Shown here in pieces: positions 26,258 through 64,000 of a DNA stretch of 64,000 nt. The notes beneath the pieces are model-generated. The model did no database searches and had not been told where the DNA came from. It was given only the letters and a program-made list of their open reading frames with translations. Source of the DNA: Marinilabilia rubra (GTDB lineage Bacteria; Bacteroidota; Bacteroidia; Bacteroidales; Marinilabiliaceae); NCBI RefSeq assembly GCF_003121985.1, contig NZ_QEWP01000011.1, forward strand, positions 62,001 through 126,000. Reading direction: 5' to 3'. Made by a program: the position numbers and the translations under genes. Numbering within the stretch: position 1 is the first letter of the stretch; every line of letters begins with the position of its first letter.

Positions 26258-27523
26258 TTATTTTGTATAGGTTTCTTTAATTAAATGATTTACCCGCACT
26301 TTGCCACTTAACAGATCTTGCATGAGGCCAGTCTTTAATAACTTTAACTTCATATTTTTAGCTTCAATTATAGACTTGTAATAATTGACGTTTTGTATTT
26401 TGTCAATTATAAATTCTTGTTCTTTAATATTTTTGGGTACAAGAATTGGAAGACTTTGTAAACTGGCTTTATTAAGTTTAAATCGGCCAGCTCCCTGGCG
26501 AGTCAAATAAAATGTTATATCACGATGATTAAAAAAATAATGAATCCATTTAGTTGAACAAGCATTGGTGCCTCTTAATATATGTGCGTGGTTACTTACA
26601 TTGAATTTGCCATTTACTAAAATTGTTTGTTCTTGAAAAGCCCATTTAAGATAATGGTCACCATCTTCTCCAATTAAAACAAATTCTCCATCAAGACGAT
26701 ATTCGTTGATTTTATCAATAATACCTGTTGCTCCGTAATAAGGATAATCACCGTTCATTGCCTCACGTACTTTTGCTGAAAGAGGCAAACGCTTATTATT
26801 ATGCAACTCCATTACAGAATCAAGAGTTTTACAATCCCACTCCACCGGAATTCTCCCCAAAGGACTATCTTTAAACTCATGGGTTTCTTGCCTGCGGATA
26901 TTGCCATTTTCGTCAATGCCTTTGGTGAGTAGGTCTTGCATTAAGCCGGTTTTAATACGTTGGTATTTGGCAATAAGCTGTTCAGTTTCGGTAATGGCTT
27001 CATCTACTTTGGAAAGTATGGTGGCGATTTGGTGTTGTTCGGTGGGGGATTTGGGGAGTAAAAAGCTTAAACTTTCAATTTGCTTTGGGCTTATATTTTT
27101 TTGTGCCCCGCCCGCAAAAAATGCTTCTAATTCTCTTTGAATTATACCTGAAGAAACAAGATAAAACAAATACTTATTATCAATGTTTTCTTGAACATGA
27201 AACCTTCCAACTCTTTGATTCAGAATATATGGTAAGTTGCCATGCTTAAGCATACATACTTTACCCAAATCACCCGTTAATCCAATTAAAACATCATTTT
27301 TATTTAATAAAAAGGGAGAATGAGTTTTTTTAAATATTGAAGATACATAAACTAAATCTTTAAATTGGAAGGTCCCATTCCCGACATTACCAATACGAAC
27401 AAGTAGAATACCTTCCTCTTTGTAATCACTGGATTTGAAAGCATACCCTCCTTGCACTTTAAAGATATTTTCACCCGATATAAACTTCCACCCTTCCGGT
27501 ATTTTCGCTTGATTTTCCTCCAT
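26258..27523 (-). CDS. hsdS: Type I restriction enzyme specificity subunit
   Basis: 421 residues with two target-recognition domains (about 1-160 and 215-370). Each is followed by a conserved helical spacer ending in the repeated sequence KTGLMQDLL (about 195 and 405). The first half opens IPEGWKFISGENIFKVQGG and the second IPVEWDCKTLDSV, the typical HsdS repeat structure. It recognises a bipartite DNA site for the methylase and nuclease. The start overlaps the HsdM stop in TAATG. It appears intact. Confidence 0.93.
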   Translation of the reverse strand: MEENQAKIPEGWKFISGENIFKVQGGYAFKSSDYKEEGILLVRIGNVGNGTFQFKDLVYVSSIFKKTHSPFLLNKNDVLIGLTGDLGKVCMLKHGNLPYILNQRVGRFHVQENIDNKYLFYLVSSGIIQRELEAFFAGGAQKNISPKQIESLSFLLPKSPTEQHQIATILSKVDEAITETEQLIAKYQRIKTGLMQDLLTKGIDENGNIRRQETHEFKDSPLGRIPVEWDCKTLDSVMELHNNKRLPLSAKVREAMNGDYPYYGATGIIDKINEYRLDGEFVLIGEDGDHYLKWAFQEQTILVNGKFNVSNHAHILRGTNACSTKWIHYFFNHRDITFYLTRQGAGRFKLNKASLQSLPILVPKNIKEQEFIIDKIQNVNYYKSIIEAKNMKLKLLKTGLMQDLLSGKVRVNHLIKETYTK

Positions 27524-30411
27524 TAGCTTAAATAGTTTAATTGGGTTAGAAAACCATTAAGTTCGTTCATGGTCTGGTTACGTTGTTTTTCAATGCTCTG
27601 TGCAGAAACATAGTATTTATCAAACAGGTTTTCGTAAGCTGCCACCAAAGCCCGTTTTTCGGCATTCAGGTAGCGTTGTAACTGGGTATTGATAATGTCG
27701 AAATGCTTTTTCAGGATTAGTTTTTTAGCTTCTTCCTTGGTTATGATGCCACCAATTTCTTTTAGTAAATTGTCTAAGCTGTCAATTTTTGCTTTTAAAA
27801 TACCTTTATCCTTTAAACGGGCATTATAGGCTTTTGTAATTTCCTTAAACTGTTTTTTGGCTTCTAAAACTGCATTGAGTTTATCGGGCTGGTCTTTACT
27901 CTTTTTCAAAGCTTTTTCCAATGCTGAGGTTGATTTTTTAATTTTATCGTAGTCGTCTGTATCTTTCAGGTCAGTTTTAAAATCGGTAATGAGGTTTTCA
28001 ATGTCAGTATCCAGCTTATCTATTTCTTCATTTGCTGCTTTCAACATCTTTTGGCTTTCTGCCTTTTCATCATCAGGGCCATGCCGTTTTAAAATCAGCT
28101 TCAGTTTTAATTCCTGCTGTTTCTCTTTAATTTGGGCTTTGTAGTCTTTTATTTCTTTTTCGAGGTCTTTAATTTTTTTCTCAGCTTCCTGAAATGGTTT
28201 CGCGTCTTCTGGTTTCTTTTTCTCGTTTAATAGATATTCAATTTGCGGCTTTAACTGCTCTTTTGCTAATTTGGGTGTTTGTTTTACTTCCCCTTCTTCT
28301 TCATCCTGCTCATATTCCACCAAATTCAATGCTTCTTCAACTGCTTCTTCCAGGTTGGTTTCTGCTTCTGCCTGCTTTATTTCAAGGTTTTCAATTTCTG
28401 TCTGCTCTTTTTTGAAAAACTCTTCAATCAGGTATTCGTCAGGTATTAGCCCGGCATCCCAACCATTTTGCATCATGGTTTTCAGGTCGTACTTTATATT
28501 GTCCCACCAGTTAACAAATACACCGGCTACCTGAAACTGGTCGAGCACACCAACAGGAACAAATTTGTCTTTTATGGATTGAAGTAATTGTTTACGGATA
28601 TCAGGAAATCTTTCATCCTTCAAGGAAATATAATCAGCTATTGGTTCTTGAACCTGGTTTTTTTCATCCTTTTCTTCTCCATTGGCAAGTAACGAAAAAT
28701 CATCTTTTGCCAATTGCCACCAGTCTGCAAGATGTACACCTAATTCAACAAGTTTGGTCTCAACTTTTTTATCGTCCTCAATGATTTGTTTAATTTCTTC
28801 CTTATCATCAAGTTTAAAAAGTTTGTAAGTATTATCCTTGTCTTTAAATAGTTGGTTGCCTTCAAAATCAAATTTTGGGCAAAGTGTTTTTTGAATTTTC
28901 TCTATTTCTGAAACAGGAATACCACCTACCAAATGAGCTTTTACATCTTCGGGTTCAGGTGGTGGAGTATTATCTACATATCTTCTGATGTTTAGCGTAT
29001 AATCATTTTTCTCAATAGTTTCTAAGTCAACCAACTTTGAATAGTTGGCTTCTTCAATTTTGTTTTGAAAAACGAAATCAATCTTTTCAATATCCTCCGG
29101 CCTGAGAGAGTTTTGATTTTTTCCCTCTGCATAGTCTTTATCTGCATTGATGATAAATACTTTGTTTCTCTGTTCATCAGGCTTGCTTTTATTGAAAAAC
29201 ATTATACAAGCAGGTATACCTGTTCCATAAAAGAGATGTGGGGGCAAGCTTATTACAGCTTCCAAAATATCAGCTTTTAACATGCCTTCCCGTATTTCTT
29301 TCTCTTTACCTCCTCGGAATAATACGCCATGAGGCATTACAACGGCCACTTTTCCGGTTTTTTTACAACTTGCCAACATATGTTGCACAAACATTAAATC
29401 GCCCTTCTTTCCAGTTTCAGGAGCAAAGCCATAAGAAAAACGGCTTTGATACTGCATGGTGGCTTTGTTGTAATTTTGAGAAAAAGGTGGGTTGGCAATA
29501 ACCCGGTCAAATTGAATTAATTGGCCATCTTTTTCGTTTAGTGGTTCCGCAATAGTGTCACCATATTCAATATTGTACTTTGAAATATTATGTAGTATAA
29601 TATTCATTTTACAAATTGCTACTACTGCGGGATCGTTTTCCTGGCCAAAGAGTTCAATATTCTCTGGATTCTGCCCTTGCTCTTCAATATATTGGTACGA
29701 TTGGATTAACATACCCCCCGAACCTGCTGTCGGGTCATAAATTGACATTCCTGCTTTTGGTTGCATGAGTTGAACCAGTAAACGCACAACCTGATGTGGG
29801 GTATAGAATTGTCCGCCTTTTTTTCCGCTTTCATCAGCGAAGTGTTTAAGGAGGTATTCATAAGCAGCACCAAGCAAATCAGGAAACTCAAAATTATCGT
29901 TGATTAAAGCAGGGAATTCATTGAAGTGGTCAATCATTTGCTTCAGGTCAACATTTTTTACAATCTGCTTTCCGTCCACTTCTTTGTTAAAGTTAATCCG
30001 TCCTTTGAAAATTCCCGATAAGGTGTCAGGGTTTGCTTCTTCTATTGCATCCAAAGCTTTGTTTAGCATTTGCCCTATGTTGTTTTGCAAATGCTTTATT
30101 GGTGGGTGTTTAACTCCATTTTCATCAGTAAATCCTTCATGCCATCTTGCTCTCTTTGGCACAAAGAAAGTTTCCCCATAAGTTATTTTTTCTTCAAGAA
30201 TTGTATTTAAAGTTTTTTCATCAAGATGTTTGTAATCCCCGGTTTTTAATTTCTCTCTTTTTTGGTCAAAAACATCTGACATTCGCTTCAGGAATAACAT
30301 TCCGAAAATGAATTCCTTATACTCCGCAGCATCCATCTTACCTCTCAGGATGTCAGCAGCTTTCATTAAAAAGTTCTCCAGTCTTGAGAGTTTAATCTTT
30401 TCTTTCTTCAT
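27523..30411 (-). CDS. hsdM: Type I restriction enzyme M subunit with long C-terminal extension
   Basis: 962 residues, much longer than the roughly 500 usual for HsdM. The N-terminal helical domain is followed by the N6-adenine methylase: [14 protein letters not shown] (about 203), PTAGSGGML (SAM motif, about 227) and [10 protein letters not shown] (catalytic NPPF, about 307). After about residue 510 comes an extension with a long Lys/Glu-rich coiled coil (about 640-880). It methylates the host site with HsdS and forms the core for HsdR. It is the first gene of the operon. A TAAATTTG box at 30427-30434 on this strand is a possible -7 element, without a well-spaced -33. Confidence 0.93.
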
Positions 30412-36665: not shown

Positions 36666-36818
36666 TCACTTTTTTCCACCGCCTTTAGATCCACCTGAAG
36701 ATTTACCACCTCCCGATGAATTATTGCTTCTTCCACCTCCTGATTTTCCACCTGTAGTCGAAGGCCATCCACCAGCATTTCCTTGTCCTTGTTGTCCTGT
36801 TTTTCCCATTGCATTCAT
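36666..36818 (-). CDS. Small Gly/Ser-rich protein
   Basis: 50 residues, starting MNAMGKTGQQGQ. It has a GGWPSTTGGKSGGGRSNN segment and a GGGKSSGGSKGGGKK tail. No signal peptide or membrane segment. Short Gly-rich proteins with a 'WPSTTG' core occur in Bacteroidota, with no role known to me. Its own hairpin terminator directly downstream supports a real gene, and an inverted repeat (36892-36934) lies in its leader. It is below the usual ORF-length cutoff, so it is easily missed. Confidence 0.6.
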   Translation of the reverse strand: MNAMGKTGQQGQGNAGGWPSTTGGKSGGGRSNNSSGGGKSSGGSKGGGKK

Positions 36819-37129
36819 CTTTTTAAGTTATTGCCTACTCCTGTTTTACGTCTTTTTTCGGTTTGTTCCGACAATCATTTAACAAAAACAAAAGGTGCAC
36901 AAAACATCCAAATCCGGAATGCCTCGTACACCTTTATATTTCTTATCAATCAATCCCCATCCAGTGGAGGAGAGGAATATCAAATTTCTTTTAAGCTTTA
37001 TGTGGGGTAGGGCCGTCAATTTGTTTTATTGTTTTAAAGTTTTTTAGTTTACTGTAAAACTAATTTTTTTGTTCTCATTTTCCAAAAATGGTTAACAGAT
37101 TTTTTCCTAATTGTCATTAGGGAAACGAA
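36819..37129. other. Intergenic junction between AT-rich host-like DNA and the GC-richer element
   Basis: About 310 bases without a supported gene. It contains a 9-bp inverted repeat (AAGGTGCAC 36892-36900 with GTACACCTT 36926-36934) and a small hairpin followed by seven Ts (37044-37070). The composition changes sharply just right of here, so the left end of the integrated element probably lies in this stretch. No duplicated att core could be identified because the right end is outside the window. Confidence 0.5.
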
Positions 37130-37181: not shown

Positions 37182-38855
37182 TCAAAACACGGTAATTTCA
37201 CCACTTCCTCCAAACCGGTTTTTCTCAGCCCTGGCGACAGCGCCTGTGACTACCACAGACGTATCGCAATCATGTTCCCATTCGGCACTGCCCCGGAAAT
37301 TTCCGGTTTTGGTGACCTTATGAATGGTAACCAGGTTCATGTTAGGGTATTTCAATGTGAGTTTGGTAGCAGCCTCTGGGTTGAGTCTAAGACTGTCTGC
37401 ACTATCCAGAAACACAACATCGTATTTACTCAGATCTGCCGGAATTTTATCCACTAGGAAGAGCTCCGGATGTACTGCCTTGAGCATTTTGATTTTTTTC
37501 TGGAGCGTCGCTCCAAAACCTTCCTCATTGGCCACAAAAAGAACGGTTTTGCCCATTTGGTCAGCCAGGTATTTGGCCAGGTCAAGAGCCAGGGTGGACT
37601 TACCACTTCCGCCTTTGCCGTAGATCATTAACCGGAATGGTTCGCTCATATCCCCCAGCAGTTTGTGCCACTTGCCGGTAAGTCCCATGGGATAAAAAGC
37701 CTTTCGTTCAAAATCTGTGGAGCGCATGGCCTTCCCTGATTTCACCGTGATTTTCAGTTCGGTCTTATTACATCCGTCAATACCGGCCAATCCCTCCAGA
37801 CCATTCAGCTCAGACTGACTAATGGAAGGCGTAATAGACCGACCAGCCAGGTAATCTTCCAGTGCTTTCCTGATCACCCGAAGCTTTTCATGAAGTGGCT
37901 TTGATGCATTGAGAGCTGCTTTCCCGGTTTCAATTCTCTCTAACAGTTTTTTAGCTTCTTCCTTAACACCGGGTTTACCCTGAATGCGTAAGAACCGCTT
38001 AATGACCAGAACAGCCGGCATGGTTGCCAGTCCGGTGGTAATGGCTTTAAGTTCTGCAAGCTTATCCCCGGAGAAATTCACGGTTATACTGCCGCCATCA
38101 TTGACCATTGAAATCAGTTTGTCTTGCATGTATTCAATCTGGTCAGCATATTCAGATGCCTTGCGAACCCTTCGTTCGACAATGGCCGTTTGCAATGATT
38201 TCAGCATGTTAAGTAGCTCTTCATGTGTTTTTGTTTTCCCGTTCATGGCCACAAACCGGCGCAGGAAAGAAACTTCCGCATCCACCTTTTCGGTGTGCTC
38301 CGGTAGCGGCTTATCCATCCGGGCAAGCTTCTGTTTGATAAGACCTTTCAGAATGGTTTCCGAAACCTCCTTTTTGGTGCCTTTATCGGTTCGATACACA
38401 TAAACGGGTTCTCCCGACACAGAGTGGGAAAGAGTTTCAATTTCTGACTTTTCCACATAGCCGTTTACATAGGCATAAAGAAATTGTCCGGCTTTGTATT
38501 TGTGCTTCTTCAGTTTTTTGCGTGACTGACGCGGCTTTTTTTGTTTTTGAGTTTCTTTGTTTTCCTGTTTCTTAGTTTTTGAGTTTTTCTGTTTGGAAGT
38601 TTCTTTGTTTTCCGGCTTGCTACTTCCCTTTTTCAGCGCCTCCGGGTTGGCTTTAATGTCCTTATCCAGATTCTCGAAATACTTACCAAGAATCCGGTGA
38701 ATGGTTGCCACATTCTCCGGGTTGGTTTCTTCATGAATGTTTTCAATGATCTTGATTACCTCCGGGTGTTTACGGGTAAAAAAGTCACCGTGTGCCAGTT
38801 TTGAGAAGTCAATCCCTTTTGCCTTCTCAATGTAGTTGTCGATAGTAAATGCCAT
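37182..38855 (-). CDS. RecA-fold ATPase with Lys-rich linker
   Basis: 557 residues from MAFTIDNYIEK. I chose this start because the conserved AAATTTCACAAAATG element ends exactly there and the 61 residues upstream read through the previous gene. Residues 78-117 are a low-complexity Lys/Gln/Asn/Glu linker. The motif GLEGLAGIDG is at 352-361. The C-terminal ATPase has Walker A GKGGSGKS (413-420) and Walker B YDVVFLDSAD (about 478-487), and resembles RadA/RepA-type RecA-fold ATPases. It is the last gene of the element. It might drive DNA replication or recombination; a packaging ATPase is less likely because the FtsK/HerA-type signature is not seen. Confidence 0.75.
   Translation of the reverse strand: MAFTIDNYIEKAKGIDFSKLAHGDFFTRKHPEVIKIIENIHEETNPENVATIHRILGKYFENLDKDIKANPEALKKGSSKPENKETSKQKNSKTKKQENKETQKQKKPRQSRKKLKKHKYKAGQFLYAYVNGYVEKSEIETLSHSVSGEPVYVYRTDKGTKKEVSETILKGLIKQKLARMDKPLPEHTEKVDAEVSFLRRFVAMNGKTKTHEELLNMLKSLQTAIVERRVRKASEYADQIEYMQDKLISMVNDGGSITVNFSGDKLAELKAITTGLATMPAVLVIKRFLRIQGKPGVKEEAKKLLERIETGKAALNASKPLHEKLRVIRKALEDYLAGRSITPSISQSELNGLEGLAGIDGCNKTELKITVKSGKAMRSTDFERKAFYPMGLTGKWHKLLGDMSEPFRLMIYGKGGSGKSTLALDLAKYLADQMGKTVLFVANEEGFGATLQKKIKMLKAVHPELFLVDKIPADLSKYDVVFLDSADSLRLNPEAATKLTLKYPNMNLVTIHKVTKTGNFRGSAEWEHDCDTSVVVTGAVARAEKNRFGGSGEITVF
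38550..38611. repeat. Two copies of AGTTTCTTTGTTTT inside a coding linker
   Basis: Exact copies at 38550-38563 and 38598-38611. On the coding strand they encode part of the Lys-rich linker of the ATPase. Further exact copies are at 38944-38957, 42829-42842 and 44396-44409. Confidence 0.7.
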
Positions 38856-38874: not shown

Positions 38875-41800
38875 TCAGAATTCAAATTCCATCTCCATTT
38901 CCAGCTCCAGAGCTGTTGCCAGAGAGAGTGCTTTAAGTTTTTTAGTTTCTTTGTTTTGCCCCACACGCTGGCGGTATCGCTTCTTGTCAATGGCCAGCTG
39001 TTCTCGTGCATATGCTTCATCAGGATCCCGGCGGGCAATCACTTCGGAGACATCTTCATCTTCAAAGATGAGCTCGAACATGGTTCTGGACATCTGGGCT
39101 GACAGGGAATATTTGTCCTGCAAAATCCGTGTGACCTGGGTAAGCCTTGAAGGATCAAAACTGCCCACCATATTGCTGCTGCGCTTGTTGAATCCGTCAT
39201 TGCCCTCCATGAGCCTGAACAAATCGGGATCTGTGTAAATCTCCTTGTTGCGGGCCCCATAGGGAATAACCAGCTCGTAACCATCGTACCCTCTTGAAAG
39301 CACAATGCCGTTTGTCAGGGCCACCAGAGAATTCTTGTTTAAGGATTGCAGATAGGGCAATATCTTTATGACCGGTACCTGAACGCTGGCGGTGGCCTTT
39401 TCCTTTTCCCAGCCATCAGGCATCAGAATGCCTTTCTCTTTGCCACCGCCCTGAAGTGTAAAATCAATCAGCTTTCCCCGATAGTTGGCAATGCCCTGAA
39501 GAATGTTGTCCGTGATGATGTAACGGGTGATGCGATCTGCCTGGCGTTTTTTCATCATCTCATCCCATTGATTGAGAATTTCCACCTGACTGTAATTGTC
39601 CAGCGAACTGCTTAACCCGATGATGCGCTCCACCATGGCTCCCTGATCACCGGACAGTGCCAGTACCATGTATTTTCGCCCATCACCAACTGCAAACCGC
39701 ACCTTTATTTTGGAAAGCGTATAAGGATTCTCCTCTTTGTGATTGATGACAAACCCGAGAAATACAGCAGGGGAGGGATCGTTGGAAACCACATTGGGCA
39801 CATAAACTCCGCGACCGGGATAGAAAGTCCTGATCCGGTTTCTAATGGCCCGCCTGAGGCGATCTGACTTTTCCCGTTCCGCATTAATCAGAGATTCCCT
39901 GGAATTTTCAATTTCCTGCAGCCGCTTCTTGACGTAAGCTGCTTGCTCTGCCTGATTTTTTAATTTTTTGTAGTTCTTTTCCTTTCGAATGTATGACCGT
40001 GCCACTTCCAGCCGCTCATCAATGTGCGAAAGCATGTTCTGTAATCGTGCCTGCAGAGCCTGTTCCATATCCTGGATAATCTTCTCGGTATAAGACAGCG
40101 GATCCTGATTCCCAACAGTCTGTTTGATCAGCTCCTGAATCTGGCTTTTACGAAAAGGCTTGCGAAGATTGGCACAATCGCAGGTTTTCAGAATCGAATC
40201 TCTTCCAAACGCGCTCTTTCCGCCTTTCCCTGCTTTGATCACTTTCCGGTCGATGACCACCGCATCCAGGGCAACGGCTTCCACCTCCAGGTCGTATTCC
40301 TCAATTTGTTTGAGGTACTCCACATATTCTGTGTATCGAAGTGCCATGTCGGTATAAAACTTCTCCTGATCTGCCACAGATAGAATAGCTACACGACCCG
40401 ACACCTTCTGAATGCCACCTTCTCTGATCTCAGGTGCTTCCACACCCAGTGGCTTGCCTAACAATTCATCGATTTCCGGGTTTTCAATCAGATAATCCGC
40501 CACCAGCTTGTCACCGTATTTGTTCAGGAAATCCACCTGCTCACCAATCTGACTCTGGTTGGCTTTCTGGTTACTGGTGGTATTGGCATCCAGACTGCGG
40601 AGCTTGCGTTGCAGCATCATCTGTAAACGCTTCTCAGCCGGAATAGCTGATGAAATGTAACGGTAACGCGGTTTGAGTATTTGTCCGGTGCGGTTGATGC
40701 GCCCCCGTTTTTGCACCTCGGTGTTGATGTCCAGCTCAGGCTGAAGCACAATCATCTCCCGCTGTTTAACCTGTGCTTTGGATACTTTCCGGGTTACAAT
40801 GGCATGGGCAGAAGCACCTGTGGAACCACTCTGATTAATCAGCAGGCAATCCACCTCATTGTCGTTGAACTGTCGGAAAGCATCATTGGTGGCAATCCTT
40901 TTGCGACTGAGAATGGTGCCTGACTCTCTGCCTGAAAACTGCACCATGATTTTCCGTCCGGTCACCTCAGCCACTATGAAGCCGGCATTTTCAATGATCT
41001 CCACAATCCGGTCGATGGGAGAGATGGTGATCCCCGTTGCTACCCGGTCTATCTCATCGGTAATCCGGTTGTATTCTGCCAGGGCTTCCTCGCTGATCAT
41101 GGCCGGTTCCAGGAAATCATATTTCTTCTGTCCCCGGTAATCGGTAATGGTAATTTTCAAAACCGATTTGAGTCCTTTATAGAGAACATGCTTAAAATCC
41201 GTATTGATGACTTCACCCGGAGCCGATTCGGCAATCTCCTCCAGGAACGAGCCCATGGTGTTGGCAAAGGCAATGACCGGTTTGCGTCCCGCTTTCAGGG
41301 AACGGATGGCATCGCGTGCCACATCCTCCGCTTTCAGACTTAGCAGAAGCTGATTGATTACATTAAAAACCTTCGAGAAGTATGGCTGATTGTCCACCCC
41401 TGCAGAAGAAGTACCTTTTCTGGAGCTGGCCTCCCCGCCTTCAGCCTTCATGGCATCATCCAGGTTGTTGACAGCCTCTGCAACGTAATCTTTCTGGAAA
41501 GCAATGATGTCCCGGATGATCTCTGTTACCTTGTCGGCAATCCGGCGATGTTCCCGCTCATTTTCCGTGAGGGTCACATAATCCACCTCGATGCCTTCAA
41601 AAGAGCGCTCACGACGTATCATTTGGCCTTCCGACACCAGCTGCGCAGAAAGAATCTCCTGAAGTGCTACGCCACCTCGGGTAATGGAATCCACCAACTC
41701 ATCTTTGGTCATGTTCGCCTCCGATAGACAGGTTTTCAAAGCATAAATGGGCATATTGTCCGGTCGCTTGGCAAAAGTCGCCGACAGGAATACCACACCC

Positions 41801-42750
41801 GCAGCATTCTGAATCACATTCATCAGAAAAGTGCCTGTTTGTGAAGCCCCTGAAGCATTGTGAGCTTCATCCATAATAATGATGTTGCCTTCAGCCATTT
41901 TGGCCAGAAACATGGGTTTCAAAGGTTTCTTTTCCGGTTGGTTGAATTGGGTGTAAGTGGCCAGGATCACATCATATTTCTTTGGTAGTTGTTGTGATTT
42001 GAAAACAGACTCCTGAACCGCCCGGGCATCCGCCTGGTAAAGCAGATTTCCTTCCGAATCCTTGACTCTGGTTTTGGCATCATCGGCATTGACAATGAAG
42101 GGCACCAGGTGACCGGAACCAATATCCGCAAGATCCCGGTAGATATCCGAAAAGAGATTGGGCTTTTCACTTAAAAAGATGGGAATTTTCTTTTGCTGAT
42201 TGGCATACCGGATCATGGCCGCCGCAATGCGTCCCTTGCCGATACCTGTCTGGTCACCTACAATCAAAGACTGGTTGCGCTCCTCAATATTGTAAATGGC
42301 CAAAGCAACAGCATCGATCTGCTCGGCAGACAAAGCCTTTTCCAGTTCCTCTTTTGTTTTGTAGCCCAGCTTTTTGCGAACCAGATCAAACACATTTCCG
42401 CCCATGTGCTTTTTGATTTTCCGTGCAGCGATGTGCGTCTCATCAGCCATGGAGTCCGGCACCTGGGTTTCCAGAATAATACCCCCTTCCGATACCGGGA
42501 TGTATGGCTCCCCCAGTCCTTTGCCGGTTGGTTTGTATCCATGTGATTTTAGAAATAACCGCCAACGGTGAGGGGTGCGCTCGGACAAATCTTTTAGTCT
42601 GGCGGAGAATTTCTTAAAGCCGGTAGATACATCAAACCCCCAGAATAGAAGTTTCTCACTGATTTCCGGGGCCGGTCTTTTATCAAATGTAATGACGGTT
42701 TTAGTTAAGAGAACCTGTTGCTTTTTGTCAATCTGTATATGAAAGTTCAT
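38875..42750 (-). CDS. Strawberry-notch-like SF2 helicase, polyvalent type
   Basis: 1291 residues. The SF2 core has NQSLIVGDQTGIGKGRIAA (Walker A, about 170), NIIIMDEAHNASG (DEAH, about 290), GVVFLSATFAKRP, LLINQSGSTGASAHA (about 635) and VQKRGRINRTGQ (about 665), the arrangement of strawberry-notch helicases. A long helical region (about 900-1000) follows. The extreme C-terminus is LATALELEMEMEFEF, shared with two other proteins of this run. Helicases like this are typical parts of 'polyvalent' proteins of phages and plasmids, thought to enter the host with the DNA. It precedes the ATPase gene by 19 bases. A role in protecting or remodelling incoming DNA is inferred. Confidence 0.85.
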   Translation of the reverse strand: MNFHIQIDKKQQVLLTKTVITFDKRPAPEISEKLLFWGFDVSTGFKKFSARLKDLSERTPHRWRLFLKSHGYKPTGKGLGEPYIPVSEGGIILETQVPDSMADETHIAARKIKKHMGGNVFDLVRKKLGYKTKEELEKALSAEQIDAVALAIYNIEERNQSLIVGDQTGIGKGRIAAAMIRYANQQKKIPIFLSEKPNLFSDIYRDLADIGSGHLVPFIVNADDAKTRVKDSEGNLLYQADARAVQESVFKSQQLPKKYDVILATYTQFNQPEKKPLKPMFLAKMAEGNIIIMDEAHNASGASQTGTFLMNVIQNAAGVVFLSATFAKRPDNMPIYALKTCLSEANMTKDELVDSITRGGVALQEILSAQLVSEGQMIRRERSFEGIEVDYVTLTENEREHRRIADKVTEIIRDIIAFQKDYVAEAVNNLDDAMKAEGGEASSRKGTSSAGVDNQPYFSKVFNVINQLLLSLKAEDVARDAIRSLKAGRKPVIAFANTMGSFLEEIAESAPGEVINTDFKHVLYKGLKSVLKITITDYRGQKKYDFLEPAMISEEALAEYNRITDEIDRVATGITISPIDRIVEIIENAGFIVAEVTGRKIMVQFSGRESGTILSRKRIATNDAFRQFNDNEVDCLLINQSGSTGASAHAIVTRKVSKAQVKQREMIVLQPELDINTEVQKRGRINRTGQILKPRYRYISSAIPAEKRLQMMLQRKLRSLDANTTSNQKANQSQIGEQVDFLNKYGDKLVADYLIENPEIDELLGKPLGVEAPEIREGGIQKVSGRVAILSVADQEKFYTDMALRYTEYVEYLKQIEEYDLEVEAVALDAVVIDRKVIKAGKGGKSAFGRDSILKTCDCANLRKPFRKSQIQELIKQTVGNQDPLSYTEKIIQDMEQALQARLQNMLSHIDERLEVARSYIRKEKNYKKLKNQAEQAAYVKKRLQEIENSRESLINAEREKSDRLRRAIRNRIRTFYPGRGVYVPNVVSNDPSPAVFLGFVINHKEENPYTLSKIKVRFAVGDGRKYMVLALSGDQGAMVERIIGLSSSLDNYSQVEILNQWDEMMKKRQADRITRYIITDNILQGIANYRGKLIDFTLQGGGKEKGILMPDGWEKEKATASVQVPVIKILPYLQSLNKNSLVALTNGIVLSRGYDGYELVIPYGARNKEIYTDPDLFRLMEGNDGFNKRSSNMVGSFDPSRLTQVTRILQDKYSLSAQMSRTMFELIFEDEDVSEVIARRDPDEAYAREQLAIDKKRYRQRVGQNKETKKLKALSLATALELEMEMEFEF
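38878..38925 (-). repeat. Terminal tag copy 1 (C-terminus of helicase)
   Basis: Encodes LATALELEMEMEFEF followed by the stop codon. It is nearly identical in DNA and protein to the copy at 44303-44350. Confidence 0.85.
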
Positions 42751-42842
42751 GTTATTTGTTTTTAAGTTTTTCTCTTGCCTTGTTTTTTAGTTTTATTGTT
42801 TTTTTATTCCTCAGTTTTTCAGTTCCTGAGTTTCTTTGTTTT
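42751..42842. repeat. A/T-rich low-complexity spacer between helicase and methylase genes
   Basis: Read leftward it is made of AAAACT, AAACAAAGAAACT and AAAAAC words with stops in the methylase frame, so it is non-coding. It has the same composition as the coding Lys-rich linkers in the neighbouring genes and contains an exact AGTTTCTTTGTTTT copy on the + strand (42829-42842). Confidence 0.6.
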
Positions 42843-44294
42843 TCAATTTTGTTGTTTTAATCTTTCTTTAATGGCTGCAATGCGGGCCTCCCGGTTATTG
42901 AAAACCCGGCCAACGGTTATTTCCTTTCCGTCGATAAAACGGGCCGTCCAGGTGCGGTCGTGGTAAAACTGTACTTTGGAAAAAGCTTTGTAGCCTTTCT
43001 CGCGTTTGTCCGCCTTGCAGGCAAAAAGCTCGGGTACCACCTGTGATTCAGGGAGTACAACCGGCTCTTTTTCTCCTTTGATGGTGATCTCCACAATACC
43101 GGAACGTGGTAATCCGGTCACGATGCCATTAATGATGATGTTCCCTGATGTCAGAAAAGAAATGCGGTCTCCTATTTTACAGCGATGGTTCTCCTCCGGT
43201 TTTTGAGCTGCCAGATCCAGGAAATGACTCATGTCGGCATTCAGAACCCGGTCATAAAAACGATCAAAAGAAGAGACAACCTCCCGCAGATGTCTGTTTT
43301 TGGTGCTGTGTTCGGCGGCATATTCGGCAATTCCCCCGGGAGCTTCTTTGCGCCCCGCAATCAGAATGAGACGGGTGTTGAAAGCTGTTCCCTGACGGGA
43401 GTAAAGTTGATGCCCGTCAATGGGAATGATGTCCTCCACATGATAAAAATGATAGATAAAGTTCAGGAAATAGCGGTCACCCTTATTGGTAATTACTCCG
43501 GAATCCGGATTGTATTTGGTATGACCGCCAATAATGATAGCTGCCCGTCCGTCATCTTTCATGGTTTCGAGAGCACGGATGGCCATGATGTGTTCCAGTT
43601 TTTTGATGTGAAAACCTTCCACCTGTTCGATGGTTTCCAGATCGCCAAAAGGCGGGTTCGTGACAATGCCATCGTATATTTTGCCGAATCCGAAAGGAAG
43701 TGAAGCATCCAGACTGGTAATGGTTTTGTAAGGCTGACGGTTCAGATTTTGAAGACGTATCTTGTCCAGTTCGTTTACATGGAGGTGATTGTATGGGAGC
43801 GCATGACAAAGCAGTCCGTTACCCGCGCTGGGCTCAAAGTAAAGGGCTTCTCCTTTGACCTTTCTGACCCACAGCCCGGCCATGAAGGAGATGGGCGCGG
43901 GGGTGGAATACTGTTGCAAAAGCACACTCATGGAGGTGCGATGCGAAAGATTGACCTGTGAGCGGTAAAGCTCAACAACCCTCTCAAAGCGCTGGCGAAA
44001 GTTTCGTTTTTCACTAAAAGCAATGCGGCGGGCTTCCAGGGCAATGGCCAGCTCTGTCAGCTCTTTTACCTTGTTTTGGTTATCAATCCCAAAGCGCTGA
44101 CGGGCCAGTTTCTCAATGGTGGTTTTATTGTGAGAAGTTCGTTTGCCAAGTTCCTGCTGAACGGCTTTTACAAAATCCGTTTCCCGGCTTTTGGAGCTGT
44201 TGGAATTATCAGAAAAAGCGAATTCTATCTCTGTTTCCAGTTCCAGAGCCAGTGCAATGGCCAATATGGTGAGTTTTACTTTCGCGGTCTTCAT
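42843..44294 (-). CDS. N6-adenine methylase-like polyvalent protein
   Basis: 483 residues. The N-terminus (residues 10-27) carries ALALELETEIEFAF, a version of the tag found at the C-termini of its two neighbours. The methylase domain has FEPSAGNGLL (SAM motif, about 150) and GIVTNPPFGD (catalytic NPPF, about 210). The C-terminal part (about 370-480) is beta-rich with KVQFYHDRTWTARFIDGK. In polyvalent systems such methylases protect incoming DNA from restriction. It starts 5 bases after the metallopeptidase gene and is co-transcribed. The methylation target is unknown. Confidence 0.85.
   Translation of the reverse strand: MKTAKVKLTILAIALALELETEIEFAFSDNSNSSKSRETDFVKAVQQELGKRTSHNKTTIEKLARQRFGIDNQNKVKELTELAIALEARRIAFSEKRNFRQRFERVVELYRSQVNLSHRTSMSVLLQQYSTPAPISFMAGLWVRKVKGEALYFEPSAGNGLLCHALPYNHLHVNELDKIRLQNLNRQPYKTITSLDASLPFGFGKIYDGIVTNPPFGDLETIEQVEGFHIKKLEHIMAIRALETMKDDGRAAIIIGGHTKYNPDSGVITNKGDRYFLNFIYHFYHVEDIIPIDGHQLYSRQGTAFNTRLILIAGRKEAPGGIAEYAAEHSTKNRHLREVVSSFDRFYDRVLNADMSHFLDLAAQKPEENHRCKIGDRISFLTSGNIIINGIVTGLPRSGIVEITIKGEKEPVVLPESQVVPELFACKADKREKGYKAFSKVQFYHDRTWTARFIDGKEITVGRVFNNREARIAAIKERLKQQN
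44213..44267 (-). repeat. Terminal tag copy 2 (N-terminus of methylase)
   Basis: Encodes IALALELETEIEFAF near the N-terminus of the methylase; diverged but clearly related to the other two copies in DNA and protein. Confidence 0.75.
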
Positions 44295-44299
44295 AACAA

Positions 44300-46348
44300 T
44301 CAGAATTCAAAGGCCATTTCCATCTCCAGTTCCAGAGCTGTGGCCATGGTTACCGGGGTTTTTTGTTTTTTAGTTTCTTTCTTTTTTTGTTGGGAAGTTT
44401 CTTTGTTTTTCAGTTTCGGAGTTTTTTTATTTTTCTGTTTTTCAGTTTCCACAAAAACAACCCCGCTTTCAGCATCGCCCTGTTTGTCCAGTTCAATAAA
44501 TTCATCTACCCGCTGATCGGTAAAAGGCACAAACCGACCCAATCCGATCACTTTACGGGCCTCCCGGATGATGCTTTCGAACAACCGGTTAAGAAAAGCC
44601 CTTTCTTCCCCCTGAGGATAAACACCCACCCCGAAATGCGCCCCGCTGACCAGGTAGTTGTTTTCCATCCCTCTGGCGGTCAGTCGGTCAAAGACAAAAC
44701 ACTCAAAGGCCCTGGCAAACATCTCCACCGGAGAGGCCCAGTATTTGGAACCGTAAAACTTCGATTCTGCATAGAATTCGGAAATATTGTTCAGGGTTAG
44801 CGGAATGTCCAGAAACTCCAGTCCAAACTTTCGGGGAATACTGCTCAGAAGTGCCTTGGCATTGCTGTAATAAGAAGGATATTTCAGATAGCCGGGATAT
44901 CTCCGTTTCAGGAAATCGAGCGATTCTTCGGGAGAGGCTCCGTATTCAAGGCGGAAAGCGTATTTGGCATCTTTGGTGTAAAACCTTCGGGTAATGGATT
45001 TTCCTGCAGTTTGCTCATTATTGCCCCGATAGGTGAAACGAGCCAGATTGGTGACTTTGTCGTATAGGTTCAGGGCCTTTGGATTTTGAATGTACTGGTC
45101 GCTGTCAATTTCAATGTGTTTTTCCCGGAAGGCATAACAACCGGTGGCCATTTTACCCTTTCTGAGTCCGAGATTGATGCCTAAAAGATGGTCGAAGAAA
45201 TGACCCCACTCGTGAGCCACAGTTCCGTCACCGTGTTTTCGTGTCAGGTTTATGATCTGACGCATCGGTTCATAATGTGCCAGGGCTTTCCCTTTTCCCC
45301 TGGCCGCAAATGCAATCGCCAGATTCCCGATTTTATGGATCTGACAAATATCGATGTCCAGAGCTTCGCATAAATCGGTGATGGCACCAATGAAATAGCG
45401 GATGTGTTCTTTCAGCTCTTTGTCGGTAATGGAATGACCTATTTGAACGGCATTAAAACCGTATCTTTCGGTCAAAACCTTCTCGGAAATATCATTATCA
45501 GAGATGAAGAGGCCTCCTTTTCTTCTGATGTGTGAAAGCGGCAAGCCTGAATTGATCTCAATTTTATCGTTTGACTTTGTGCCTTTATTGTTTTTGGGGA
45601 AAGCCCAGTCCCAGGAAGGTTCTTTGTAGAGAGCATTGGCTGTTTCATGAACCTTACTGCTTTTGAGCATAACCATGTTGGAAAAGCGAGTTGAGAAGTT
45701 CTCTCTTAGCAGGCGTGTAAAGTAATAGCGCTTTTGGGTTTTAAAATAATGATCTAACCGGTCATAATGATCTTTAAGGAAAAGATCAACTTCAGTATAA
45801 TCCCGGCAATCCTTAAATTCAATGGAGTGCTTAATCATTGCTGAAAGCTCAAGAGTTATTTGAGCGGAAGTGCTGTAAGCCTTCGCTGCCTCCAGAGACC
45901 ACAATACATCCGGTAGAGTGTCCACCAGTGGCTTGATGGTATCGTAGTCATTCAATTTTTGTTGAAGGTATTCCGCCGTTCTGACATAAACCTTTCGCAT
46001 ATCTGGGGTATTGACAGAAGGCTTTGGCGGAAAAGATTTCCGAAATTCATTTCTCAGATAGCAAAGAGCCGGATCGGCATTGGATGCCTTGAGGATAGAG
46101 AAGTCATAAGCCGCCCAAACATTGTCTTTTACCACCATTTCAATGGCAGAAGCTTCATCCTGTTCCAGTTTGTCGAGGTCTTTGGAGTTGACCAGGGAAC
46201 GCATAGCGGCCCGTTCTTTGGCAGATCCGGGTACATACTCCCCGGCATCCCTGAACTTTCGCTTTTTCTGCTTTTCACGGAGGAACTCCACTACATCAGG
46301 CGATTGTCCTAATGTTCCGCTTAGAAAAATGTATTTCACCTTTCCCAT
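44300..46348 (-). CDS. Zincin metallopeptidase polyvalent protein
   Basis: 682 residues. A zinc motif HEWGHFFDHLLG lies at about 380, with the downstream SPVEMFARAFECFVFDRL region (about 545) supplying a possible third ligand. This matches the metallopeptidase domain of polyvalent proteins. A Lys/Thr/Gln-rich linker (about 630-665) leads to the C-terminal tag MATALELEMEMAFEF. The N-terminal half is helical and unassigned. It overlaps the previous small gene by 13 bases. A role in cleaving host proteins after DNA entry, or in maturation, is inferred from family context only. Confidence 0.8.
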   Translation of the reverse strand: MGKVKYIFLSGTLGQSPDVVEFLREKQKKRKFRDAGEYVPGSAKERAAMRSLVNSKDLDKLEQDEASAIEMVVKDNVWAAYDFSILKASNADPALCYLRNEFRKSFPPKPSVNTPDMRKVYVRTAEYLQQKLNDYDTIKPLVDTLPDVLWSLEAAKAYSTSAQITLELSAMIKHSIEFKDCRDYTEVDLFLKDHYDRLDHYFKTQKRYYFTRLLRENFSTRFSNMVMLKSSKVHETANALYKEPSWDWAFPKNNKGTKSNDKIEINSGLPLSHIRRKGGLFISDNDISEKVLTERYGFNAVQIGHSITDKELKEHIRYFIGAITDLCEALDIDICQIHKIGNLAIAFAARGKGKALAHYEPMRQIINLTRKHGDGTVAHEWGHFFDHLLGINLGLRKGKMATGCYAFREKHIEIDSDQYIQNPKALNLYDKVTNLARFTYRGNNEQTAGKSITRRFYTKDAKYAFRLEYGASPEESLDFLKRRYPGYLKYPSYYSNAKALLSSIPRKFGLEFLDIPLTLNNISEFYAESKFYGSKYWASPVEMFARAFECFVFDRLTARGMENNYLVSGAHFGVGVYPQGEERAFLNRLFESIIREARKVIGLGRFVPFTDQRVDEFIELDKQGDAESGVVFVETEKQKNKKTPKLKNKETSQQKKKETKKQKTPVTMATALELEMEMAFEF
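44303..44350 (-). repeat. Terminal tag copy 3 (C-terminus of metallopeptidase)
   Basis: Encodes MATALELEMEMAFEF before the stop; 13 of 15 residues match the helicase copy at 38878. Confidence 0.85.
44396..44409. repeat. AGTTTCTTTGTTTT copy in metallopeptidase linker
   Basis: An exact copy in the DNA for the Lys-rich linker just before the C-terminal tag; variants occur on both sides. Confidence 0.65.
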
Positions 46349-47324: not shown

Positions 47325-47894
47325 TTAGGTGTTAAGGGTGGTCGAGATTGAGAATTTGTCATCGAATGAGGTTTGATTAAATACCCGTTCTTTGAGCCAT
47401 CCGTAGATAAACTTTCGCTGCTCCGGTCGCGCCTGAGCAATCTTGACATAACGGGCACACTGCACCGCATTCATCAGCATGCGCAGCCTGTCGGGCATGG
47501 GGTAACGGTTGACAAACGCCAGCGTTTTATAGCCCAGACGGCCATCCACCTCCAGGTCATTTCCATACCGGTTGGCATGGTTTAGCAGGTTGCAGCTTTT
47601 TTGAAGCATCTCAACGGCCGTTTCAGGGCCCATATTGACAGCCGTGTCCAGCAGTTCAAAAGCCAACTGGTCATTGGTGATTTTATTAAATCCCGGTTTG
47701 AACCAATACTGCTGCAGATAAATATCCCGCGCGGTCTCTATGGTCAGATCTTTCATCGAACCGTTATAGCCATTGTCTCTGGCAGTCTTAAGCGTAATCC
47801 CGAATTTTGTTTCTCCACCCGCGTCTGATGGGTCATTCACATATCCGCCTTCGATCTGAATGATTTTGGAGATGAATAGATGTTCTCGTGCCAT
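47325..47894 (-). CDS. GH108 lysozyme (endolysin)
   Basis: 189 residues. The N-terminus has the GH108 motif EGGYVNDPSDAGGETKFGIT, with catalytic E15. The C-terminal half (about 90-185) is the PG_binding_3-like domain usual in this family (VDGRLGYKTLAFVNRYP). There is no signal peptide, so export would depend on the adjacent holin. The start codon is the end of an AAATTTCACAAAATG element, so lysis may share control with the other genes carrying it. Cuts peptidoglycan to release progeny. Confidence 0.92.
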   Translation of the reverse strand: MAREHLFISKIIQIEGGYVNDPSDAGGETKFGITLKTARDNGYNGSMKDLTIETARDIYLQQYWFKPGFNKITNDQLAFELLDTAVNMGPETAVEMLQKSCNLLNHANRYGNDLEVDGRLGYKTLAFVNRYPMPDRLRMLMNAVQCARYVKIAQARPEQRKFIYGWLKERVFNQTSFDDKFSISTTLNT

Positions 47895-51181: not shown

Positions 51182-51763
51182 TTAAAGCATACTGTAAGCC
51201 TGTTCAAATTGACGGTCGGACACCGGATAGGCCGGCCCGTTTTCCATCAAAGCCATGGCCCTGACAAGATTTTTTAAAAGAGCTTTGGTACTGATGAGTC
51301 CCGCATCTTTGTGAATGCCGGTTTGTCCTGACACAAAGGCAATGTACCCGGAAGTGTTGTTTTCTGACGAAGGAGCATACTTACCAATGAGTTTGGTCAG
51401 CGTATTATAACCCCGGTCAATGTCGTTTTTCAATTGACGGATCATTGCCCTGAGACCGTGTTCAAAAGAAACAAACTGTTCAAATGCCCCGTCCGAGTTC
51501 TTTTCCACCGGAATTTTTCCTTTCCAGGCAGATGTTGTAATTCTCAGGTTGCCCGGATTGTTGTTACGGATGCCCCGGGGGTGGGAGGCGTTGAGAAAGC
51601 CCGGCAGTCCAAAATAATTTCTGACCACCGGGTCACTCTCACGACTGACATATGGAAAAGATTTTCTTTTGTTGGCAGTTCTCACGGCCAGAATGGCCAG
51701 AATGATGCTCCCGGTAATCAATGAAGCCGCCACAATATGTTTAGATTTGGTTGTCATCATCAA
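51182..51763 (-). CDS. Membrane-anchored peptidoglycan hydrolase, virion type
   Basis: 193 residues. An N-terminal membrane segment (about 9-27, IVAASLITGSIILAILAV) is followed by RGIRNNNPGNLRI (about 61-73), the signature of phage structural lytic enzymes, and a QFVSFEHGLRAMIRQLK region. In membrane-containing phages a membrane-anchored hydrolase of this kind helps DNA entry. It overlaps the preceding gene by 4 bases (ATGA type). Distinct from the lysozyme at 47.3 kb, which is the exit enzyme. Confidence 0.78.
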   Translation of the reverse strand: MMMTTKSKHIVAASLITGSIILAILAVRTANKRKSFPYVSRESDPVVRNYFGLPGFLNASHPRGIRNNNPGNLRITTSAWKGKIPVEKNSDGAFEQFVSFEHGLRAMIRQLKNDIDRGYNTLTKLIGKYAPSSENNTSGYIAFVSGQTGIHKDAGLISTKALLKNLVRAMALMENGPAYPVSDRQFEQAYSML

Positions 51764-55522: not shown

Positions 55523-56284
55523 TTACTTTTTGTGGACTTTACATCCGATAAGGGTCAGCTTCACGGCTTCAAGAGCCGAACCCGCCTTGGTCATGGTCAA
55601 TCTGGGTTTGATCTCCATCTGGGGCTTGATCCATTTGGGGTGATCCAGCTTGAAAATGTGGGGTTTACCACCATCGGAGCTTTCATTGTTGAAAATCTCA
55701 CACGATAGGTTCTCCGGCAACAAGCTTTCTGCACCTACCTTCAGTTCAAACTCCCCGTTCTTGATCTTGGCCGGCAAATCGCCCACAAAATCAGAATCCG
55801 TAGCAGCTCCGCCATCCGGGAAAGTGCCGAAGTCAAGACATACGGCTGTTACCAGGAAGTGCTCGTTCAAATCCAGCTTGGCACCGTTTAGGTTACTGCG
55901 GCCGGTTGCTTTATCATCACTGCTGGTCAGCAGGTCGATAACACTTTTGCCTTCGATGGCTTTTATTCCGTAAATATTGGCATCTACTACCTGGAGGGCG
56001 CGATTGGCCAGTCCTTTGACGATTTCAGGAGGCAGTTCACTTTTCTTCATCTCAAAGTAGCCCTTCGAGGTGATATCGCTGCGAAAAGCCGCGGCTGTCA
56101 TAACGCCGTTCTTACCTTTCTTTTGTCCGGCACTGTGCGCCTGACGTACAAATGGTTTGACCGCTCTTTGAGAGATTCTTCTGGCGGCCGGGCGACGGAC
56201 CTGAGCAGGTACACCTATTTCACCCAATACACCTTCGATTTCCTCTTCCATGGAAGAGCTGGCATACTCTAAACCTTCAATCAT
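55523..56284 (-). CDS. Candidate capsid or core protein with basic N-terminal arm
   Basis: 253 residues. It starts MIEGLEY, related to the element's GLEGL-type motif, with EEEIEGVLGEIG after it. A basic stretch (RRPAARRISQRAVKPFVRQ, about 29-47) follows, then a beta-rich domain (FLVTAVCLDFGTFPDGG, FELKVGAESLLPENL, LTMTKAGSALEAVKLTLIG). A basic arm plus beta domain fits a shell protein of a tailless phage (PM2-type P2 is about 269 residues). No family is recognised, so this competes with the 383-residue protein as main capsid. The hairpin after it suggests it is made in greater amount than the next gene. Confidence 0.45.
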   Translation of the reverse strand: MIEGLEYASSSMEEEIEGVLGEIGVPAQVRRPAARRISQRAVKPFVRQAHSAGQKKGKNGVMTAAAFRSDITSKGYFEMKKSELPPEIVKGLANRALQVVDANIYGIKAIEGKSVIDLLTSSDDKATGRSNLNGAKLDLNEHFLVTAVCLDFGTFPDGGAATDSDFVGDLPAKIKNGEFELKVGAESLLPENLSCEIFNNESSDGGKPHIFKLDHPKWIKPQMEIKPRLTMTKAGSALEAVKLTLIGCKVHKK

Positions 56285-59261: not shown

Positions 59262-59549
59262 TTAGTTGCGGCGTTCAAAGAGGGATTTGGAAATCTTTTC
59301 TTTCAACGACAGGACAGCATCGTCCAGTAGTTCAAATCCCAGATCCATGATTTTACGGGACATGTCTGGGGGCAGAAAATCCGAAAGGTGGAATTGCCCC
59401 TTGCCGGATAGCTCTTTTAATCGCTGGTTCATGGCCGTTTGAATTTTAATGAACGTTTCCGGATCTCCGCCCTTGTCGGGATGAGCTTCAAAAGCCAGGC
59501 GGCGGTATTCCGCCTTCAGCTCTTCGAGGGAGTGACAGTGGTCGAACAT
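59262..59549 (-). CDS. Small J-domain protein
   Basis: 95 residues. HSLEELKAEYRRLAFEAHPDKGGD contains the HPD motif (23-25) required to stimulate DnaK, and a complete J-domain of about 60 residues. The C-terminal 40 residues are helical. No DnaK or other DnaJ domain is encoded nearby, so it would recruit the host chaperone, as phage J-proteins do in replication. It overlaps the DUF4248-like gene by 34 bases. Confidence 0.85.
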   Translation of the reverse strand: MFDHCHSLEELKAEYRRLAFEAHPDKGGDPETFIKIQTAMNQRLKELSGKGQFHLSDFLPPDMSRKIMDLGFELLDDAVLSLKEKISKSLFERRN

Positions 59550-62893: not shown

Positions 62894-64000
62894 CTAAGAC
62901 CATTTTACATTCCTGAGCTGTTTCCGTAATCGTTGCTCGCTTTGATGAATGTAAATCATACTGGTTTTGATGTCACTGTGGCCCATCAGCTCCATAATCA
63001 GGTATGGATTGGCCGTAATATCCGCCAGCAAGGTTCCGAAAGTATGCCTGGCCACATGAAAACTGATGGCTTTTCGTGTTTTGGCCATTACGGCAATGCT
63101 TTTTAAGTGACGGTTCACAACCTGGTTGGCAATTGGCTTGATAATTCCTGATGAACCGTTCCTTTTTTCCAGAAGCTTTTTGAGCATATCCTGTGGTTTT
63201 CCGTCAAACATGAGGTGTAATGGCAGCACCACATCGGTGGTTTTGGCATATTCAACCTTGGTTTGCTTGAAACGGATTGTGTAGCCTTCCGGGGATAACT
63301 CAATGTTCTTCTCTTTGAGGGCCATCAAATCTGAAAAACGAATTCCTGTATAGACCGAAAAGAGAAACAGGTCTCTGACATAACTGATCTGTTCAAATCC
63401 AATCTCCGGGAATTCCAGCTCTTCAATACGCTTGACTTCTTCCATCGAAATGTTTTCCCTGGTACCGGGAACTTTCTTGGAGGAAAATTCATTGTACGGA
63501 TTGTCTTCCGCTTTAAGGTATTTTCGCTTGATGGCAATGTTGATGAAGCGAAGCAGGTTTTTGTGATGCTTGTGGATAGTGTTTTGTTTAAGCCCTTTTC
63601 CACGCAACATTTTGTCAAAACCAACCACCTTGTCATAATTGAAGTCTGAGAACTCGCAACGATTTTCTCCGCAGAATTCCTTAAAAATGTTGATGGTGTA
63701 GTTCCATTCTTTTTTTGTGCCGTAAGCCATATGTTCGTTATTCTCAGCTTCGGTTTCCAAAAAGGTGATCAGGTCAAAGGGGGCATTCTTGTTGTTGATG
63801 AAATCCTCCAGGGCAGTCTTGGTGAATTTTCGACCGCTGTTGATTAGCGAAAATTCGAAGTTTTGAATGTCGCTAACCAAACTGTGGAGGTACTGGTTAA
63901 TGGAAAGATAATTGGGGTGGGAGGGCTTGACTTTGTCTTTGTACCTTCCGGTGATTCCCCACTGGTCTGCCTGAAGCATGACTTTTGTTGAAATGTACTT
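62894..64000 (-). CDS. int: Tyrosine recombinase (integrase), N-terminus outside the window
   Basis: The reading frame stays open to the right edge, with KYISTKV before the first Met in the window, a phrase typical of Bacteroidota integrase N-termini, so the gene continues beyond 64000. Catalytic residues are present: Arg in SVYTGIRFSDL, Lys in RFKQTKVEYAKT, HxxR in SFHVARHTFG, His in LMGHSDIK and the Tyr in SMIYIHQ. A SAM-like N-terminal core-binding domain precedes them. It integrates and excises the element. The att site probably lies just right of the window. Confidence 0.95.
   Translation of the reverse strand, partial: KYISTKVMLQADQWGITGRYKDKVKPSHPNYLSINQYLHSLVSDIQNFEFSLINSGRKFTKTALEDFINNKNAPFDLITFLETEAENNEHMAYGTKKEWNYTINIFKEFCGENRCEFSDFNYDKVVGFDKMLRGKGLKQNTIHKHHKNLLRFINIAIKRKYLKAEDNPYNEFSSKKVPGTRENISMEEVKRIEELEFPEIGFEQISYVRDLFLFSVYTGIRFSDLMALKEKNIELSPEGYTIRFKQTKVEYAKTTDVVLPLHLMFDGKPQDMLKKLLEKRNGSSGIIKPIANQVVNRHLKSIAVMAKTRKAISFHVARHTFGTLLADITANPYLIMELMGHSDIKTSMIYIHQSEQRLRKQLRNVKWS

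Follow-up and report, generated by a model that had tools for sequence, protein, structure and literature searches.

A lineage-specific peptide shared by unrelated enzymes of Bacteroidota phage-like elements: a probable docking signal for virion loading

INTRODUCTION

Different enzymes are brought into the protein shell of encapsulins by a short C-terminal cargo-loading peptide, and the internal proteins of phage T4 carry a capsid targeting sequence that is cleaved off by the prohead protease. The T4 sequence is a short peptide that suffices to bring unrelated proteins into the capsid for delivery (PMC9024508). Packaging of the phage P1 protein DarB depends on a signal at its N terminus, no longer than 30 residues, which is by itself enough to package a reporter; the six P1 Dar proteins showed no signal in common (PMC9024508). 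Phages and conjugative elements also encode polyvalent proteins, and these, too, are believed to accompany the DNA on delivery (Iyer et al. 2017, PMC5512222). In this study, we analyzed a 64,000-nucleotide stretch of the Marinilabilia rubra genome (the window; contig NZ_QEWP01000011.1, positions 62,001 to 126,000), in which a phage-like element encodes three unrelated enzymes, a helicase, a methylase, and a metallopeptidase, that bear the same short peptide, referred to below as the tag.

The encapsulin system serves as an analogy only, and no encapsulin was identified in this element. The T4 signal is N-terminal and cleaved, whereas the tag lies at either terminus or inside the protein, is not known to be cleaved, and belongs to an element without recognized tail genes. 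Like P1 DarB, the present system has a short peptide on a methylase-helicase anti-restriction protein; the P1 peptide directs its protein to the virion, whereas packaging is what we infer here, and the six Dar proteins have no common sequence, whereas the enzymes of this operon share one. The polyvalent proteins have the same repertoire as these elements (metallopeptidase, large polyvalent protein-associated domain 1 [LPD1], LPD11, adenine methylase-superfamily II [SF2] helicase dyad, and MuF_C); however, their domains lie in one giant chain, whereas here they form separate tagged polypeptides or a fusion with one C-terminal tag (PMC5512222). A text search of PMC5512222 showed no mention of a terminal tag, and a literature search for the tag strings found none.

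RESULTS

Three unrelated enzymes of the window element share a peptide

The C termini of the helicase and the metallopeptidase, both encoded on the minus strand, read ALELEMEM(E/A)FEF. The methylase N terminus reads MKTAKVKLTILAIALALELETEIEFAF, with the motif inside a leader rather than at residue 1; this leader is an addition, similarity to other methylases beginning only at residue 38 to 41, approximately. The tag is therefore present, at a length of 12 to 15 residues, on three unrelated anti-restriction-type enzymes (Table 1), as a preliminary description of this DNA had noted; the three minus-strand sites were confirmed, as was the unrelatedness of the protein bodies. Its further statement that the peptide is terminal holds for the helicase and the metallopeptidase but not for the methylase, and in relatives the tag frequently lies within the protein, where two domains meet. 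Whole-protein homology was ruled out as the origin of the shared peptide, since the bodies are unrelated and homologous bodies were excluded from the comparison.

A degenerate 26-nt pattern had exactly three matches in the window (0 expected), all at the tags; across the 5.38-Mb genome it matched the three tags only, and a reversed-pattern control gave 0 matches. Two Marinilabilia salmonicolor genomes hold the element, with 91% helicase identity and all three tags at the same places; the helicase tag, LATALELEMEMEFEF, is unchanged in both.

A-rich arrays with an 8-nt period (AAACNNAR; 42 matches in the window versus 4.8 expected) occur on the minus strand at 42751-42842, 38532-38642, 44354-44464, 38932-38957, and 37020-37050. 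Some are intergenic, as before the helicase start, and some encode linkers rich in K, Q, N, E, and T; because 8 nt does not make a whole number of codons, the coding copies recur every 24 nt.

One tag per polypeptide in the basic lineage

Helicases of related genera, with approximately 50% identity to that of the window, end in a basic peptide, LKLVKLRAKAILIKQKQ, rather than the acidic one, and the methylases and peptidases of elements of this type bear the same basic peptide. In this lineage (lineage B, the largest), each of the 32 complete helicases, 33 complete methylases, and 18 complete metallopeptidases bore exactly one tag, compared with none of 53 neighboring RecA-like ATPases and 7 of 386 other open reading frames (ORFs); these counts include near-identical elements from few genera and are not independent events. 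All seven were extra proteins of the same operon: five of the C5-methylase type, as typed by a Pfam run on one of them, and two of unknown type with an N-terminal tag. In methylases extended by a further C-terminal domain, the tag lies at the boundary between the two. With relatives included, the tags span 12 to 21 residues and lie outside the homologous protein bodies. Several helicase copies from related elements, four or more per genome, occur together in G020 (L054, L133, L134, and L135) and in G044 (L136 to L139), and the basic tag type does not differ among them.

Other lineages pair the same enzymes with different letters

A split adenine methylase and Strawberry-notch helicase with a common, lineage-specific tag occur in at least 10 divergent Bacteroidota lineages. 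Tags common to both enzymes include EIEKAKARLRLLKLKLKLAQL (L005), RKFAFKLKLQLQL (L145), RKLRLAKAKAKALLLYAYAQ (L239), RLRIAKAKAKAKLKML (L236), and LKLKLKLQKAKL (L155). The pattern first proposed for the peptide, [AL]ALELE.E.[AE]FEF, thus captures one lineage and misses the acidic and basic versions of the others. When methylase and helicase tags from seven lineages were permuted, the pairing within each lineage was the best of 5,040. Three split pairs found later by searching (L368, L394, and L398) follow the rule with further versions of the tag. Carriers in relatives also include LPD11 and methylase-tag-MuF_C proteins, the latter order being that of L005.

The alternating pattern was present in the last 50 residues of 70 of 76 helicases, compared with 27 of 1,244 other ORFs and 2 of 61 giant untagged homologues; about ten of the top scorers among the 27 are peptidases or a further protein that themselves bear the tag. 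The enrichment at protein ends that had been predicted was therefore borne out, and the genome and IMG/VR pattern searches place the tag only in these phage-like elements. In 2.9 million IMG/VR contigs, the acidic pattern had few matches (L314 and L315, at C termini), the basic pattern had two (L317/L319, which is the contig of L244, and IMGVR_UViG_2917530833), and a lysine-variant pattern had none. A tblastn search of the bare tags against phages gave no matches, probably owing to masking as low complexity. Chance as the origin of the shared peptide was ruled out by the pattern counts in the window and genome, the enrichment at protein ends, and the permutation test. A generic trait of all such helicases was also ruled out: homologues of 3,000 to 6,000 amino acids in other IMG/VR contigs have no tag.

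Fused methylase-helicases retain one C-terminal tag

Across the phylum, the helicases, in most cases as part of a methylase fusion, terminate in LELEAEALALELELLAA or in a K-rich counterpart that keeps the hydrophobic frame, and the fused proteins retain one C-terminal tag. Gluing methylase to helicase is therefore not the only role of the tag. A clear second, internal copy, scoring well above 20 shuffles, was found in 11 of 47 fused proteins, most often some 100 to 120 residues before the Walker A motif, that is, at the old junction; others have weaker remnants. Clustering at the junction over all fused proteins was moderate (17/47 versus 15% with shuffled tags). Both copies are present in L395, and L396 and L397 have a weak copy only. 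This distribution fits the fusion of two tagged proteins, after which one copy became dispensable.

Of about 60 helicases in the mostly fused set (L176 to L232), 43 end in -AA, mostly as -LLAA, which resembles the -LAA of ssrA and might suggest a C-terminal degradation tag. We give this idea very little credence: the window tags end in FEF, with neither -LAA nor -AA, and the lineage B tags are internal or have other residues after them.

Selection acts on the peptide

The location of the tags at gene and domain borders, the A-rich 8-nt arrays alongside them, and the greater conservation of lineage A tag synonymous sites than of gene bodies could point to a DNA-level repeat, either a recombination seam or a regulatory element at gene ends, that is incidentally translated. 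The within-element comparison largely refutes this explanation, leaving it highly improbable. Tags of one element preserve the peptide, and their DNA has diverged chiefly at synonymous sites: for 19 pooled pairs, the proportions of synonymous (pS) and nonsynonymous (pN) differences were 0.81 and 0.16, with silent sites near saturation, where one poorly aligned pair (L161) raises pN and the selection of pairs by peptide similarity lowers it. Synonymous-to-nonsynonymous differences were 10:1 in L005 and 11:1 in L239. Recent copying of tag DNA is excluded, because silent sites are near-saturated despite the selection of pairs. A translated repeat would have a nucleotide identity at least equal to its peptide identity; here it was lower. 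In addition, the reading frame is always the same, and the tag also lies between domains inside proteins.

In a comparison of Marinilabilia species, synonymous sites of the tags at 38878-38922 and 44214-44255 had pS values of 0.14 and 0.34, respectively, versus approximately 0.5 in gene bodies. These values suggest an extra nucleotide-level constraint on the window-lineage tags, which probably stems from their position before the start of the next gene.

Charge and shape of the tag

The charge sign of the tag (E or K) is uniform within an element and varies between lineages (for example, L199 and L201 are of the K type in both copies). Simple DNA binding by acidic tags is excluded by this pattern, for which the best explanation is a common receptor with divergence from one lineage to the next. 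The same uniformity bears on homotypic assembly, in which the tags themselves would pair, strand to strand or helix to helix, and hold methylase, helicase, and peptidase together. The match of tags within an element, their strand-like hydrophobic periodicity, and the presence of one tag per split piece are consistent with such pairing; however, like charges throughout an element disfavor face-to-face contact, and fused methylase-helicases, which need no glue, keep their C-terminal tag. We consider homotypic assembly improbable.

The hydrophobic periodicity, near 160 to 180 degrees, suits an extended strand and agrees to that extent with the single beta strand of the preliminary description; in a shuffle test at 180 degrees, it was significant for no tags beyond those of the window and one further tag. 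AlphaFold2 instead returned a helix for a basic-lineage tag, at a very low confidence (predicted local distance difference test [pLDDT] score, 41 to 47).

Carrier enzymes and the surrounding element

The identified carriers are polyvalent or DarB-type enzymes (LPD1, LPD11, MuF_C, and HsdM/TaqI-like methylase), as had been suspected. The structural model of a relative of the window methylase matches type I HsdM/TaqI adenine methyltransferases. The window methylase itself had a weak BLASTP match to P1 DarB (E = 3e-4), and hidden Markov models of the window families gave no match to the P1 Dar proteins; its sequence homology to DarB is thus weak. Two minus-strand ORFs of 421 and 962 amino acids (26258-30411) resemble HsdS and HsdM of type I restriction-modification systems by sequence, and lie not far from this prophage with its DarB-like enzymes.

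The element combines metallopeptidase and LPD domains with the methylase-helicase dyad, as is typical of polyvalent proteins. These activities reside on three polypeptides in the window rather than on one, and many relatives fuse methylase and helicase. On one strand, phage lysis genes and putative structural genes come first, and the genes for the tagged enzymes lie downstream. One structural protein, conserved among these elements, was modeled as a beta-rich domain, and its closest matches, although weak, are jelly-roll capsid proteins of viruses. The scanned proteins included no recognized portal, terminase, or tail family, the exception being transglycosylase-type matches to proteins of the tail or head, and for this reason the particle may be tailless. 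A short DnaJ-domain protein is encoded beside the structural genes (59262-59549, minus strand).

Table 1. Features of the window element, with positions in the window
Feature	Position	Strand	Basis
Helicase C-terminal tag, LATALELEMEMEFEF	38878..38922	-	Read from sequence; degenerate 26-nt pattern
Metallopeptidase C-terminal tag, MATALELEMEMAFEF	44303..44347	-	Read from sequence; degenerate 26-nt pattern
Methylase N-terminal-region tag, ALALELETEIEFAF, residues 14-27	44214..44255	-	Read from sequence; degenerate 26-nt pattern
K/Q/N/E/T-rich linker preceding the peptidase tag	44348..44464	-	Encoded by 8-nt-periodic A-rich array
Strawberry-notch/AAA_34 SF2 helicase, separate polypeptide	38875..42750	-	PF13872 and PF13871
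DarB-type adenine DNA methylase, separate polypeptide	42843..44294	-	phrog_6263 DNA methyltransferase, E=3e-4; model of relative; BLASTP
Metallopeptidase with LPD1 and HEWGH motif	44300..46348	-	PF18796, E=1.5e-19
RecA/Sak4-like ATPase, next gene of module, never tagged, candidate partner	37182..38855	-	PF13479; phrog_6891, phrog_124
Phage endolysin (GH108)	47325..47894	-	PF05838, PF09374; phrog_315
Virion lytic-transglycosylase-like protein, N-terminal hydrophobic segment (read from sequence)	51182..51760	-	phrog_873, E=7e-37
Putative jelly-roll capsid protein	55523..56284	-	AlphaFold2 pLDDT 72.7; best Foldseek matches, viral jelly-roll capsid proteins, E ~1e-3
Tyrosine integrase, far window edge	62894..63979	-	PF00589

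DISCUSSION

The data presented here provide good support for a docking module, and we propose that the peptide is a shared docking signal, probably one for virion loading. Every enzyme polypeptide of the phage operon (adenine methylase, Strawberry-notch helicase, LPD1 metallopeptidase, and sometimes a C5-methylase or other enzyme) carries one copy of the tag, attached through a polar, flexible linker. A single receptor would recognize every copy in an element; most likely, this receptor is part of the virion during assembly or is itself taken up into the virion. The tag would act as a shared capsid-targeting sequence, such that the enzymes would enter the particle as a group and arrive with the DNA, which they would protect from restriction; a single tag would be enough for a methylase and helicase in one chain. 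Capsid targeting is the leading reading because the P1 DarB signal provides a precedent and delivery along with the DNA is the presumed fate of polyvalent proteins. As in known targeting sequences, a short peptide (no more than about 30 residues) is joined to an otherwise complete cargo protein, and the carriers are of the DarB-like class, for which packaging is established (HsdM/TaqI-like fold, SF2 helicase, and LPD1). Obligatory removal of the tag by a prohead protease appears unlikely, since internal tags sit between conserved domains.

Several observations weigh against virion loading. The capsid assignment is weak (Foldseek E ~1e-3). The P1 Dar proteins have no terminal consensus, as reported (PMC9024508) and as also compared here, and the precedent is therefore functional rather than sequence based. 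A charge-reversal comparison of E-tag and K-tag relatives singled out no clear receptor candidate. Finally, no virion gene tracks the tag more strictly than does the gene for the untagged RecA-like ATPase; this ATPase could be the receptor, in which case the complex need not be packaged.

The last point leads to a different proposal, that the tagged enzymes dock on the neighboring RecA/Sak4-like ATPase and form an intracellular entry or replication machine that is not necessarily in the virion. The RecA-like gene adjoins the tagged module, is itself never tagged, and accompanied tagged helicases in lineages A (3/3), B (17/23), and C (3/3), in other split elements (4/4), and in fused elements (52/55), but stood beside none of 70 untagged giant homologues. 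Nine neighborhoods found by the RecA-like protein alone (L353, L354, L356, L359 to L362, L366, and L367) had no tagged set. A small Gly/Ser/Lys-rich ORF lies downstream of the RecA-like gene in the window (36666-36818, minus strand). However, the co-occurrence of the RecA-like gene with tagged helicases may reflect inheritance of the module, charge did not covary convincingly with the sign of the tag, and the metallopeptidase and MuF_C domains suggest delivered effectors rather than a DNA machine. We regard docking on the ATPase as rather unlikely, although it is a more serious contender than the other alternatives considered above.

A broader and more tentative view can be envisioned, in which a Bacteroidota phage family without recognized tail genes would use a modular cargo-address system: one lineage-specific peptide per polypeptide would load a complete and exchangeable set of anti-restriction enzymes into the particle, and the acidic and basic versions would be separate address codes. 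Tailed phages, with their giant polyvalent proteins, would have arrived at fusion as the alternative solution.

In conclusion, to our knowledge, how phages select the enzymes that they carry and deliver is largely unknown; in these elements, a common signal can be read in the sequence, recurs across many lineages in different letters, and is acquired by new cargo enzymes. Cargo loading could be tested directly with a short peptide, delivered phage proteins would be predictable from their tag, and the tag may provide a small, portable means of loading proteins into particles.

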